A program made the translations under genes and the position numbers. Below, one piece after another: positions 20,960-44,591 of a stretch of 50,423 nucleotides of DNA (positions within the stretch are counted from its first letter, which is position 1; each line of letters begins with the position of its first letter). The notes below the pieces were generated by a model. The model saw only the letters and a list, made by a program, of their open reading frames with translations, did not search any database and had not been told where the DNA came from. Source of the stretch: Archaeoglobaceae archaeon (GTDB taxonomy: Archaea; Halobacteriota; Archaeoglobi; Archaeoglobales; Archaeoglobaceae); assembly GCA_030153385.1 (NCBI GenBank), contig JASKJN010000003.1, positions 1 through 50,423 of the forward strand. The letters run 5' to 3'.

Positions 20960-21217
20960 ATCGGGGGAGTGGTGGTAGTAAGCCCCCTTCTGTTCCGACG
21001 GCATCAGTCTCAGCGGCTCTTTGGCCTTGCACCCGATGGCGGGCAGGAATTTCAACCAGCAAGGGTGATCTCTGCCCTTCGGCATCATCGCATTACCCCT
21101 TGCCGGGATTTTTCTGTTCCCGCCCGTTCCCCTCTCAGGGATCTCCTTACGGAGACCATCTTTGCGGGTGGGGGGACTTTCCTCCTTTCGGTAAGCCGTC
21201 CACCACCGCTCCCCCAA
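20960..21217 (-). ncRNA. rnpB: RNase P RNA (archaeal)
   Basis: GC-rich island; minus strand reads GGGGGAGCGGUGGU…GAGGAAAGUCC…ACAGAAGGGGGCUUACUACCACCACUCCCCC: conserved GAGGAAAGUCC and ACAGAA…GGCUUAC elements plus a near-perfect 14-bp closing P1-like helix. Confidence 0.9.
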
Positions 21218-40840: not shown

Positions 40841-41345
40841 GCTTCTGTATCCTCTCAGGACTTATTTAATCGTTTCTGGAGTTGATAAGCCGAATGTAAT
40901 GACTGCAGACTGGGTTATTCCCCTCTCTTTTGAACCAAAGCTTCTGGGAGTTTCTGTGGGTCACAAGAGACATACAAATAAGCTTATAAAGGAGTTTAAG
41001 GAGTTTGTTGTTGCAGTTCCAACGATAGAGCTTTTAAAGGACGTCTGGATAGCTGGAACTGTTAGCGGAGCAAATGAGGATAAGCTGTCAAAGCTTAGGC
41101 TGACGTTTGTGAATTCGCAGAAAGTTAGAGTACCTTCGATAAAGGAGTGTCAGGCAAACCTAGAATGCAAGGTGGTAAAAGAAGTTGAGGTCGGGGATCA
41201 TACACTCTTCGTTGGTGAAATTGTAAACGCGACTTATGGCGACGCTTTCAGGGGTGGAAAAGCGGATCTCAGCTACCGCTTTATCCTCCACGCAAGTTTT
41301 GGAAAAAATTTTACAACAAATTCAGATGAAATTTTCTCACCCTAA
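40833..41345 (+). CDS. Flavin reductase-like FMN-binding protein
   Basis: YPLRTYLIVSGVDKPNVMTADWVIPLSFEPKLLGVSVGHKRHTNKLIKEFKEFVVAVP; HTLFVGEIVNA. Confidence 0.88.
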   Translation: MLELLYPLRTYLIVSGVDKPNVMTADWVIPLSFEPKLLGVSVGHKRHTNKLIKEFKEFVVAVPTIELLKDVWIAGTVSGANEDKLSKLRLTFVNSQKVRVPSIKECQANLECKVVKEVEVGDHTLFVGEIVNATYGDAFRGGKADLSYRFILHASFGKNFTTNSDEIFSP

Positions 41346-41980
41346 GATCTGCGAAGCATTATTGCAGTTGCGGTGAAAGAACCTACAAAGATTGATACCA
41401 AGAAGAGGGTTGTTGCTCGGTAAGTGGCGCTTTGTTCCGACAAATTTTTAAGCTCGACCTCCATCTGTGAGATCTTGCTCTTTTTGCTTTCAAGATCCTG
41501 AATTATTGCAAAGTATTTTGCCTGAAGCTGGTCATAACTGTCCCTATATGCTCTTAGTTCGGTTTCAAGACCTAATTTTTCAGTTTTAAGCTTCGAGTTT
41601 TCCTGTTCAAGTTCATTTACTCTCTCTGAAAGATTGTTTATTTCCTCACTGAGCAAAGTGTAATTCTTCCAAACATTTTTAATTTCATTTTCGAGGAAGA
41701 TCGCATATTTAATCACAGTCTCGGATTTAGCAGGAGAGACCGAGATCACGGCAATTGTCGATCCATTCCCCAATACATATTTTGTGCCTTCAGAACATGT
41801 CAATCCGACTTGCAAGATGTGTTCTCCTGGCTGAACGCTTGCTACATTGCTCATACTCTCCAAGAAGTACATGCAGGGGTCATCAGCCTGCAAAACAGCT
41901 GGTTCACTGACAGGTATCGTCACGTTCTCTCCTGCACTTACTGAAAAGACGAGAATAGATAGGAGAATGGTAGCGATCAT
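41342..41980 (-). CDS. Exported coiled-coil protein with C-terminal TM anchor
   Basis: N-terminal signal (MIATILLSILVFSVSAG), two ectodomain Cys, long heptad-rich coiled coil (LSERVNELEQENSKLKTEKLGLETEL…), C-terminal TM (TTLFLVSIFVGSFTATAIMLRRS). Confidence 0.75.
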   Translation of the reverse strand: MIATILLSILVFSVSAGENVTIPVSEPAVLQADDPCMYFLESMSNVASVQPGEHILQVGLTCSEGTKYVLGNGSTIAVISVSPAKSETVIKYAIFLENEIKNVWKNYTLLSEEINNLSERVNELEQENSKLKTEKLGLETELRAYRDSYDQLQAKYFAIIQDLESKKSKISQMEVELKNLSEQSATYRATTLFLVSIFVGSFTATAIMLRRS

Positions 41981-42486
41981 ATCAACCCCTCCAGAATCGT
42001 ATTTACCTCAACTTTTAGTTTCTCAATCTCAGGCCGAGAGAGTTCTCTTGCAACTTTTGCGTAGAGCAAAACGTCGGGATTTATCTGAACGACCACAACT
42101 CGATTTTCTCCCCCACTCAGCACGATCCTATCAGAGTTCAAAAGCTGATTCGCCAGTTTTATGATCTCTGGAGCGTTGGCAGTATCCTCCTCAGGAGTCG
42201 AGCTATTTGAAGCTATCGGCAATCCATCTGGAGTTAATAATGTGATCTCTGAAAGCATGTATTTTCTGCCAATGTAATTCAGTAGCTCTTCGAGGCTTGA
42301 GGGTTTTTCAGATATTGGTTCTACTGCATTCTCAATTTTTTCCGTTACTGCTATCTTGGCCTTCCTCACCTCTCCAATTTTTTCTTCCTCTCTTCTAACA
42401 CCTACCTCTACGAACCTCCATGTAACTACAAATCCGATCCCGAATCCAAGAGCTATGCTCAAAATGTCGTAAAGCATGCGGATCAC
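41977..42486 (-). CDS. Membrane-anchored roadblock/LC7-like protein
   Basis: N-terminal TM (LYDILSIALGFGIGFVVTWRFV), linker, then ITLLTPDGLPIASNSS…EIIKLANQLLNSDRIVLSGGENRVVVVQINPDVLLYAKVAREL. Confidence 0.6.
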   Translation of the reverse strand: MIRMLYDILSIALGFGIGFVVTWRFVEVGVRREEEKIGEVRKAKIAVTEKIENAVEPISEKPSSLEELLNYIGRKYMLSEITLLTPDGLPIASNSSTPEEDTANAPEIIKLANQLLNSDRIVLSGGENRVVVVQINPDVLLYAKVARELSRPEIEKLKVEVNTILEGLI

Positions 42487-42821
42487 CTTAATTTTGCCAA
42501 CTCATCTAAATCTGCATTCTCAACCCTCTTCGCAAATTCAAAAACTTCCTCAAGGGAGCTAAAGTCTATCTTTTTTCTGCTCCTAGAAACAAGATTTCTT
42601 GCAATTATTCTCGCAACTCCAGCAGATTTTCTTTCTACACCTACCATTACGAACTTTTTTTCAAAAGCTTCGAAGTAAATCGCCGTTTCTTCGCCCACCA
42701 AGATCGCCTTTTTTATCCCGGAATCTCTAAGCTTTTTAAACAGCTCTGTTTCTTCGATACCTTCTGAAGTTACCTCGTCGCCTATTTGGAGAATGTAGAA
42801 TTTATGCTTCATATATAGCAC
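42483..42821 (-). CDS. Small roadblock-like/unknown protein
   Basis: Four-bp overlap with the next gene; strand-helix pattern (KAILVGEETAIYFEAFEKKFVMVGVERKSAGVARIIARNL). Confidence 0.55.
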   Translation of the reverse strand: MLYMKHKFYILQIGDEVTSEGIEETELFKKLRDSGIKKAILVGEETAIYFEAFEKKFVMVGVERKSAGVARIIARNLVSRSRKKIDFSSLEEVFEFAKRVENADLDELAKLR

Positions 42822-43110
42822 CCTTCTTCCTTATTATTTCTCCGAGATTGTCTGTTCTCGCCGGGAAGAGCAAGAATTTGTCTTCAATTTTGAAAACTCC
42901 GAATCTCCTGTTCATGTCGAACTCAAAAATCCCCAACTCGAAATCTTTTGGGAAAAAATCGATCAGGGGTAGCAGTTTTTTAATCCACTCAATTTCGAAA
43001 TCGCTGAGGAGGTAATTTTCCAAAATCTTGCCTTCTTTTACAATGCAAAATCCCGAACCGAGCTCTGAGTAAATTTTTCCCATATCTGGCATTAAATAAT
43101 CTTTAATCAA
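42802..43110 (-). CDS. Small roadblock-like/unknown protein
   Basis: GSGFCIVKEGKILENYLLSDFEIEWIKKLLPLIDF…ELGIFEFDMNRRFGVFKIEDKFLLFPARTDNLGEIIRKKG; first gene of the overlapping operon. Confidence 0.55.
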   Translation of the reverse strand: MIKDYLMPDMGKIYSELGSGFCIVKEGKILENYLLSDFEIEWIKKLLPLIDFFPKDFELGIFEFDMNRRFGVFKIEDKFLLFPARTDNLGEIIRKKGAIYEA

Positions 43111-43188
43111 TCGAATATTTAAATTTATCCAATGAGAACCATCTCCGCGAAACCTAAAACTTTTTTATACCTTTGAAAATTCAGCTTT

Positions 43189-43941
43189 ATGAAAATCGCA
43201 GTTTCAGGAAAGGGGGGCGTTGGTAAAACAACGCTTTCTGCTGTATTGGCACATTTATTTGCCAAAGACGGATACAGAGTCACCGCAATTGATTGTGATA
43301 CCGCAATGAACCTGCCATCCGCTCTGGGTATAAAGAAGAATTTGAAACCACTCTCAGAACTTAAGGAAATAATAGAAGAACGTGTTGTCGGCCCCCTGGG
43401 AACGTATAAACTGAATCCAAAGGTTGACGATATTTTTGAAGCATATTCCGAATACAATGAAGACGGTGTAAGGGTTCTTGTCCTTGGGACTATTGAAAAA
43501 GGAGGAGAGGGTTGTTTCTGTCCTGAAAATGCCTTTCTGAGAGCAATTTTAAGACATGCAATTTTTAGGGAAAAGGACGTTTTAATTCTTGACATGGAAG
43601 CCGGAATCGAGCATCTCGGGAGAGGGACTGCGAGAGGAGTTGATCTGCTGATCGCTGTGGTGGAACCGGGAAGTAGAGCCTTCGAAACGCTTGAGAGAAT
43701 AGAGAAGCTTGCGAGAGATATAGGGATCGAGAAAATAGGTGTGGTTGTGAACAAGTTCATTGAGTCTGAAGAAGCAAATAGGTTAATCGAAAAGCTAAAA
43801 CACCCGGTTTTGGGAAAGATCCCGTTCAGCGAATGCTTTATCAAAGCGGACATAAACAACATCCCACCCTACAAGGTCTGTGAACTTCGGCCATTCATAG
43901 AGATAAAAGCTGAAATCGAGAGAATATGCAGATCAGCGTAG
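43189..43941 (+). CDS. CooC-like MinD-family maturation ATPase with CxC motif
   Basis: Deviant Walker A SGKGGVGKTTLSAVL; DCDTAMNLPSALG; GGEGCFCPENAFLRAIL (CxC); DMEAGIEHLGRG. Confidence 0.9.
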   Translation: MKIAVSGKGGVGKTTLSAVLAHLFAKDGYRVTAIDCDTAMNLPSALGIKKNLKPLSELKEIIEERVVGPLGTYKLNPKVDDIFEAYSEYNEDGVRVLVLGTIEKGGEGCFCPENAFLRAILRHAIFREKDVLILDMEAGIEHLGRGTARGVDLLIAVVEPGSRAFETLERIEKLARDIGIEKIGVVVNKFIESEEANRLIEKLKHPVLGKIPFSECFIKADINNIPPYKVCELRPFIEIKAEIERICRSA

Positions 43942-44591
43942 TTGTAAGAAGAGGGAAGAACAGAAGGGCGATAGAACAATTCTCGAAATTTTTTGAGGTT
44001 AAAGTTTACGAGGTCGAGAGAGAACTTCCAGTGCTAATAGAAAATCCAAAAGATTATCTGAACCTACCAGAGGATTTTAAGCCAGATCTGGTTGTCTCAT
44101 ACCTTCTGCATCCAGATTTGAATCTTGAGCTCATAAGGCAGGCTTCAGAGAGAGGAATTAAGCTTGTGGTGATCTCGGGGGGAGCCAAGAGCGGTTCTTA
44201 CAAACAGCTGAGGGAGGAAGGGGATAGAGTAGGGGTGAGAGTTTTCTGGGAGGAGATCTGCTGTACAACTCCAAAGATAGACAACTCTCCGTTTTTCGAG
44301 CTTTTTGGAGCTCCGGAATTCGAAATAGAGATCAAAAACGGAGTAATAAAGGACGTTAAGGTCAAGAGATCTTCCTTCTGCGGATCCACTTACTACGTTG
44401 CAGAAAAGATCAAAGGCTTGAGAGTCGAAGAAGCACCGTCGAAAGCGGGCTACTACACACAGATCTTCCCATGCGTCGCTTCTCGGGGTCTTACAGGTGG
44501 AATCCACAAAGCTGCGAATGCTCACAAAAAAGCAGTTGAAAGGGCAATTGAACAGGCCCTCATTAAAGCTTCTAAGAGTAGCGAACCTTAA
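43926..44591 (+). CDS. DUF166-family protein
   Basis: KPDLVVSYLLHPDLNLEL, VISGGAKSGSYKQL, VKRSSFCGSTYYVAEKIKG, FPCVASRGLTGGIHKAANAHK; 16-bp overlap with the CooC-like gene. Confidence 0.8.
   Translation: MQISVVVRRGKNRRAIEQFSKFFEVKVYEVERELPVLIENPKDYLNLPEDFKPDLVVSYLLHPDLNLELIRQASERGIKLVVISGGAKSGSYKQLREEGDRVGVRVFWEEICCTTPKIDNSPFFELFGAPEFEIEIKNGVIKDVKVKRSSFCGSTYYVAEKIKGLRVEEAPSKAGYYTQIFPCVASRGLTGGIHKAANAHKKAVERAIEQALIKASKSSEP

Follow-up and report, generated by a model that had tools for sequence, protein, structure and literature searches.

The window analysed here, a 50,423-nucleotide stretch of DNA from a heat-loving archaeon of the family Archaeoglobaceae (contig JASKJN010000003.1), contains four closely packed open reading frames, A to D, running in the same direction on the minus strand between 41342 and 43092 (table 1; G000 denotes the genome of the window, other G numbers the genomes of relatives, and L numbers loci). 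The frames had been delimited in a preliminary description of this DNA and are real genes, found in the order A-B-C-D in 10 other genomes; the overlaps ascribed to them hold in part. C and D share 4 bp (ATGA, 41977-41980), D starting at ATG 41980. A and B do overlap, yet by 11 bp rather than 20, since B starts at ATG 42812; B and C, on the other hand, lie 5 bp apart, given that C starts at ATG 42477 (in close relatives the protein begins MLY..., which leaves GTG 42486 unsupported as a start). Gene A begins at ATG 43092, from which its homologues align, and not at TTG 43110; the TATA-like box upstream fits a leaderless start there, and probably represents a single promoter serving the operon as one transcript.

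Table 1. Features of the four-gene operon (positions within the window)
Feature	Position	Strand	Description and basis
Gene A	42802..43092	-	96-aa small soluble protein; conserved in 12 relatives
Gene B	42483..42812	-	109-aa soluble protein
Gene C	41977..42477	-	166-aa membrane-anchored roadblock protein (supported by model); conserved core of the system
Gene D	41342..41980	-	212-aa coiled-coil protein, predicted to be exported; membrane helix at the C-terminus
TATA-like box TTTAAATA	43116..43123	-	About 25 bases before the gene A ATG; read from sequence
Membrane anchor of C	42415..42471	-	About residues 3-21; hydropathy, alignment
Roadblock/LC7 domain of C	41980..42300	-	About residues 60-166, α-ββ-α-βββ-α; model, Foldseek, profiles
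Signal-like N-terminus of D	41933..41980	-	Residues 1-16; hydropathy
Coiled coil of D	41411..41704	-	Residues 93-190; heptad periodicity, PDB coiled-coil matches
C-terminal membrane helix of D	41351..41410	-	About residues 191-210; hydropathy; very short tail after

The operon is flanked by genes for a flavin reductase, an HTH regulator and a CooC-like ATPase, and the earlier statement that no recognised partner adjoins it is true for the window. The flavin reductase, downstream and convergent, is a frequent neighbour in relatives; beside it, no remnants of A-B-C-D were found in genomes lacking C. The CooC-like ATPase (43189-43941), divergent from the operon, might be thought the missing partner, being a MinD-superfamily ATPase next door, as it also is in five relatives (G002-G004, G006, G007). 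However, it neighbours the operon in genus g1 only, and not in G009; five genomes with intact A-B-C-D (G009, G013, G016, G024 and G033) lack it beside A; it lies on the other strand; and it carries features that are presumably those of carbon monoxide dehydrogenase nickel-insertion ATPases. We find such a partnership hardly credible.

Gene C was described as a membrane anchor followed by a roadblock/LC7-like sequence, and structure prediction, profile comparison and, weakly, the relatives support this. The protein is hydrophobic over residues 1-27, and within the anchor G11 and G15 are invariant in Archaeoglobaceae. Its AlphaFold2 model, built with 14 homologues, begins with a membrane helix at the N-terminus, continues with a linker of little order (pLDDT <50) and then forms an α-ββ-α-βββ-α domain, whose pLDDT averages roughly 78-89 per block from residue 61 on. 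The top PDB matches of this model in Foldseek are Asgard Roadblock3 (E 4.6e-6) and Myxococcus MglB (E 5.8e-6), both with probability 1.00. At the level of profiles, a four-sequence roadblock alignment proved uninformative in hhalign, and a 24-sequence archaeal profile with a shuffle null was used instead; against it C scored 38.7, the best of 100 column shuffles reaching 19.8. The protein of the window gives no Pfam Robl_LC7 match above the curated cut-off; weak matches occur in 3 of 13 relatives (best E 0.002), and a PDB search with the C profile returned two chains only, both archaeal Robl_LC7 (E 0.16 and 0.74). Model and profiles thus support a predicted architecture of N-terminal membrane anchor plus roadblock/LC7 fold. 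A sample of 394 genomes across the phylum, searched by profile, yielded the family in 87. In G004 (L026/L088) the C gene is interrupted in its N-terminal third, by decay or by assembly error, and D is not recognised there.

For the two smallest proteins the roadblock assignment had been drawn from strand-helix patterning, and they fare differently. The AlphaFold2 model of B (mean pLDDT 79) displays ββ-α-βββ-α, without the first roadblock helix and with an additional C-terminal helical pair; of its 50 best PDB matches, 49 have a roadblock fold (E 3e-3 to 2.7e-2, probability 0.97-1.00). Sequence profiles, including the 24-sequence hhalign comparison with its shuffle null, gave no significant link, so that the support for B as a roadblock-type fold lacking the first helix comes from the model. 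A, in turn, reaches 18.2 against the same 24-sequence profile, where the best of 100 shuffles gives 15.5; this low-scoring alignment places the C-terminal half of A on strands 3-5 and the last helix of the roadblock, and A is possibly roadblock-like in that half. A PDB sequence search with A returned nothing relevant. Pfam and NCBIfam gave nothing above cut-off for A, B or D; the matches of these proteins to Pribosyltran, Cnl2_NKP2 and coiled-coil families are weak, below cut-off, and regarded as noise.

D conforms to its earlier description as a signal peptide, an ectodomain, a long coiled coil and a C-terminal membrane helix, on the grounds of hydropathy, heptad periodicity and PDB coiled-coil matches. 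Between the signal-like start and the coiled coil there is one small ectodomain; the coiled coil, of about 95 residues (93-190), is 85% hydrophobic at a/d positions, and in the membrane helix F193 and G200 are invariant. The sequence features support D as a putative external coiled-coil stalk. One may go further and read it as an S-layer stalk or envelope anchor to which A, B and C attach on the cytoplasmic side, the system then serving envelope architecture or cell shape rather than pilus positioning. The S-layer stalk SlaB of Sulfolobus is the best PDB chain for the D profile (8qox, E 2.4e-11), over the coiled coil that precedes the membrane helix, and SlaB of Sulfolobus acidocaldarius (8QOX) is likewise composed of signal peptide, ectodomain, C-terminal coiled coil and membrane helix; D also bears N-glycosylation sequons, and Haloferax MinD2 affects cell shape (PMC11588486). 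Yet the match is confined to the coiled coil, where convergence is common and where myosins and SMC proteins match as well; SlaB has three β-sandwich domains, whereas D is much smaller, has a single ectodomain and is encoded in an operon with roadblock proteins. Moreover, D is kept beside C in Archaeoglobaceae but was not seen at any of 20 C loci from other families of the phylum, and so cannot define the core function. We consider an S-layer role unlikely.

The conservation of gene order points to a MinD-type ATPase. Synteny of the four genes across relatives, which the preliminary description had put forward as a check, was confirmed in at least 10 other Archaeoglobaceae: A-B-C-D occur in that order in G002, G003, G004, G006, G007, G009, G013, G016, G024 and G033, at 29-80% identity, on contigs that include those of Archaeoglobaceae archaeon SKYB18, Archaeoglobi archaeon WYZ-LMO2 and Archaeoglobus sp. 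JdFR-41. In G020 the run continues as A-B-C-D-MinD-TM60-roadblock-DUF2226; G012 and G023 have a C-D-MinD-TM61 operon, and L090-L093 a similar C-D-MinD-TM operon, while L089 has C-D-MinD without a called TM60 gene. In the 20 C loci that we sampled from other families for neighbouring genes, MinD is the very next gene after C in 15, and C stands within two genes of it in 2 more (17/20), the usual order being a DUF2226-like gene, C, MinD and a transmembrane (TM) protein of 60-75 aa (DUF2226-C-MinD-TM65). The exceptions are four C-like genes of family f11 that are not beside MinD (3 of the 20 sampled loci, and L016). One Archaeoglobus-like C-D-MinD-TM operon, L092 (MTLR01000111.1), is labelled Candidatus Bathyarchaeota JdFR-04, with nearly the same match values as L093; the label is probably a binning error.

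Presence and absence tell a similar story. Among the 36 genomes first compared (G000 and its 35 nearest relatives, all Archaeoglobaceae), a MinD orthologue (E <= 2.8e-100) accompanies C in 14 of 14 C-positive genomes, and in a 36-genome set DUF2226 occurs in exactly the 11 C-positive Archaeoglobaceae. Genera g1, g4 and g12 each contain both C states, and MinD goes along; in G001, which is without C and 99% complete, MinD is broken by stop codons (G001:C1:128029-128551). On a tree of methionyl-tRNA synthetase (MetRS) C changes six times, and five independent pairs can be formed, in all of which MinD moves with C in most pairings and never in the opposite direction; because only five pairs exist, the test reaches p ~0.06 at best. 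Three genomes depart from the pattern (G017, G027 and G028), having a MinD orthologue and no detectable C. C, MinD and DUF2226 appear to have been gained or lost together, and a C-MinD partnership is, as a genomic prediction, well supported by operon linkage and co-inheritance.

In the genome of the window the MinD orthologue lies elsewhere (G000:C73:34549-35331). It is 63% identical to that of G020, is followed by a 66-aa TM protein (TM66), scores 367 bits against TIGR01969 minD_arch (cut-off 202), and has the deviant Walker A motif SGKGGTGKTT and a C-terminal KMLKVFRRKR that resembles a membrane-targeting helix. A canonical roadblock and DUF2226 pair is found on a further contig, G000:C59. 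A-B-C-D, MinD with TM66, and the canonical roadblock with DUF2226 stand at separate places, and we read them as one system split over three loci in G000. For DUF2226 we found no mention in the open-access papers searched. Beside the roadblock-DUF2226 pair in most C-positive genomes (L124-L127, L130, L135, L136) there is a HAMP receptor without output domain; the same neighbourhoods contain a coiled-coil protein, one end of which is CDC48_N/AbrB-like, and in most cases a 68-aa protein.

GTPases are the usual partners of roadblock folds, MglB and Ragulator among them. Together with the best structural matches of C, which are MglB and Asgard roadblocks, this would favour reading the four proteins as a scaffold of the MglB kind that serves a small Ras/Arf-type GTPase, the linkage to MinD being incidental; the preliminary description had likewise looked to an MglA/Ras-like GTPase elsewhere in the genome. 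Such pairings do exist in the family: clear Arf-type GTPases are present within Archaeoglobaceae in G014, G015, G017 and G018, each time as a fusion with a KaiC-like domain and next to a single canonical roadblock gene. However, these are all C-negative genomes and the only ones in the family with such GTPases, while at E <= 0.001 the Arf profile matches nothing in G000 or in the 11 C-positive members of the family that were searched, and C is tied to MinD instead by operon order and co-occurrence. A GTPase scaffold is in our judgement very unlikely, and the distribution rather suggests that a roadblock scaffold in Archaeoglobaceae has one of two partners, a GTPase or C/MinD. The C-negative loci themselves (L128, L129, L131, L132, from the same four genomes) combine a roadblock, a KaiC-like protein, the KaiC-Arf/Ras GTPase fusion and mostly a V4R protein, and constitute a different roadblock system.

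Overall, we suggest, with a probability of about 0.58, that A-B-C-D are the membrane module, receptor or scaffold, of an archaeal MinD system that places or licenses surface machinery. The membrane-associated roadblock and coiled-coil scaffold pictured earlier stands as far as the fold of C, the model of B and the stalk D are concerned; what it missed is the partner, MinD, encoded elsewhere in the genome. We infer contacts between C and MinD and between C and D, heterodimers, the cargo and the direction of control along the following lines. C would sit in the membrane with its roadblock domain in the cytoplasm, as the basic residues after the helix suggest, and act as the receptor or scaffold that binds the MinD-type ATPase there. 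Roadblock domains dimerise; thus C, A, B and the canonical roadblock could offer a mixed platform, the last three being likely further roadblock-type subunits dimerising with C. D would cross the membrane once beside C, its external coiled-coil stalk tying the platform to the cell envelope. On binding ATP, MinD forms dimers and becomes attached to the membrane by its C-terminus; in G000 the attachment may be provided by the basic KMLKVFRRKR end, and the C scaffold would recruit MinD, together with the 66-aa TM protein, or else retain or switch it.

As cargo, relatives point to surface machinery, most plausibly machines of the type IV pilus (T4P) family. Among the 20 loci from other families, 6 (L176, L178, L179, L183, L184, L187) have GspE/TadC pilus genes at the flanks of the module, and in L071, L075 and L076 such genes flank MinD; in Archaeoglobaceae, none of the loci seen has T4P genes next to the module. 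Pilus ATPases do not discriminate, being encoded in almost every genome, C-positive or C-negative, and the archaellum was set aside as a dividing trait, its accessory genes not following C. MinD-like ATPases and roadblock proteins have been noted as recurrent in archaeal T4P loci in a survey (Makarova, Koonin and Albers 2016, PMC4858521), and Haloferax MinD2 and MinD4 position archaella and chemosensory arrays (PMC11588486, PMC11621097).

Another neighbour invites a different function, in which the MinD-like ATPase and the roadblock proteins would help to mature or regulate a [NiFe] hydrogenase. Insertion of metal clusters is a common task of MinD-family ATPases, and genes for the small and large subunits of a Vhu-like hydrogenase share a run with the module in L028, L073, L074, L173, L174, L177 and L188 and lie near a roadblock gene in L133. 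Conversely, many loci have no hydrogenase nearby; among the Archaeoglobaceae searched the closely related, G020-type enzyme is present only in G020 and G012, and not in G000, whose MinD scores as minD_arch and not as a cluster carrier. We judge this function distinctly unlikely; the Vhu-like hydrogenase might sense H2 for the MinD/roadblock system. Usually a ferredoxin of about 80 aa is encoded near these hydrogenase genes, in several families. In G020 a 241-aa protein of unknown family (L028, 10080-10805) lies between the hydrogenase genes and A, and a distant relative of it lies near MinD in G028 (L070).

Compared with known systems, a MinD-linked membrane module combines familiar components in an unfamiliar way. 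C and B share all or most of the α-ββ-α-βββ-α fold of the Roadblock/LC7 superfamily (Robl_LC7, PF03259; MglB, Asgard roadblocks, LAMTOR/Ragulator), yet C falls below the Pfam cut-off, is predicted to be membrane-anchored and goes with a MinD ATPase rather than a small GTPase. The linked ATPase is a clear member of archaeal MinD (TIGR01969; Haloferax MinD2, MinD4), with deviant Walker A and basic C-terminus, but for Haloferax MinD we found no roadblock partner described. Archaeal T4P loci hold the same ingredients (arCOG02603 roadblock, arCOG00589 FleN/MinD), which stand beside GspE/TadC in several of our relatives as well; the passages of that survey consulted here (PMC4858521) do not, however, describe the membrane-anchored C family, its companions A, B and D, or DUF2226, and Archaeoglobaceae have no adjacent pilus gene. 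By analogy, the module may be likened to Myxococcus MglA/MglB/RomR, where a roadblock and an NTPase are thought to control type IV pilus-type machinery at the membrane, save that here the NTPase would be a MinD-class ATPase, not a Ras-like GTPase, no MglA-type GTPase being found by the Arf profile. Roadblock and MinD are known kinds of protein. For a membrane-anchored family such as C, for its close linkage with MinD and for the A, B and D genes added in Archaeoglobaceae, we found no published description in the open-access papers searched.

How archaeal MinD finds the membrane and the pole, and what replaces MinE, is the question that the C family may help to answer: in Haloferax no clear MinE-equivalent partner was identified in a 2024 paper (PMC11621097). 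A gene directly before minD across several families, and lost with minD in Archaeoglobaceae, makes C a specific and testable candidate for a MinD partner. Since in relatives a roadblock without C pairs with an Arf-type GTPase, roadblock scaffolds would on this view have come to serve two unrelated NTPase classes. We put forward, tentatively and at rather less than even odds, the broader proposal that the MinD system of this phylum has a membrane-bound roadblock regulator, C, and not a MinE/MinC-type partner, and that in Archaeoglobaceae it is coupled to an external stalk. If so, the coiled coil of D would let contact at the envelope feed into positioning by MinD, and roadblock scaffolds, regulators of GTPases from Myxococcus to eukaryotes, would be seen to serve another kind of nucleotide switch as well.

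Elsewhere in the window, the CooC-like ATPase and a DUF166 protein (43189-44591, divergent from the operon) are perhaps a carbon monoxide dehydrogenase maturation pair, and an archaeal RNase P RNA is encoded on the minus strand at 20967-21211 (Rfam RF00373, 141 bits).
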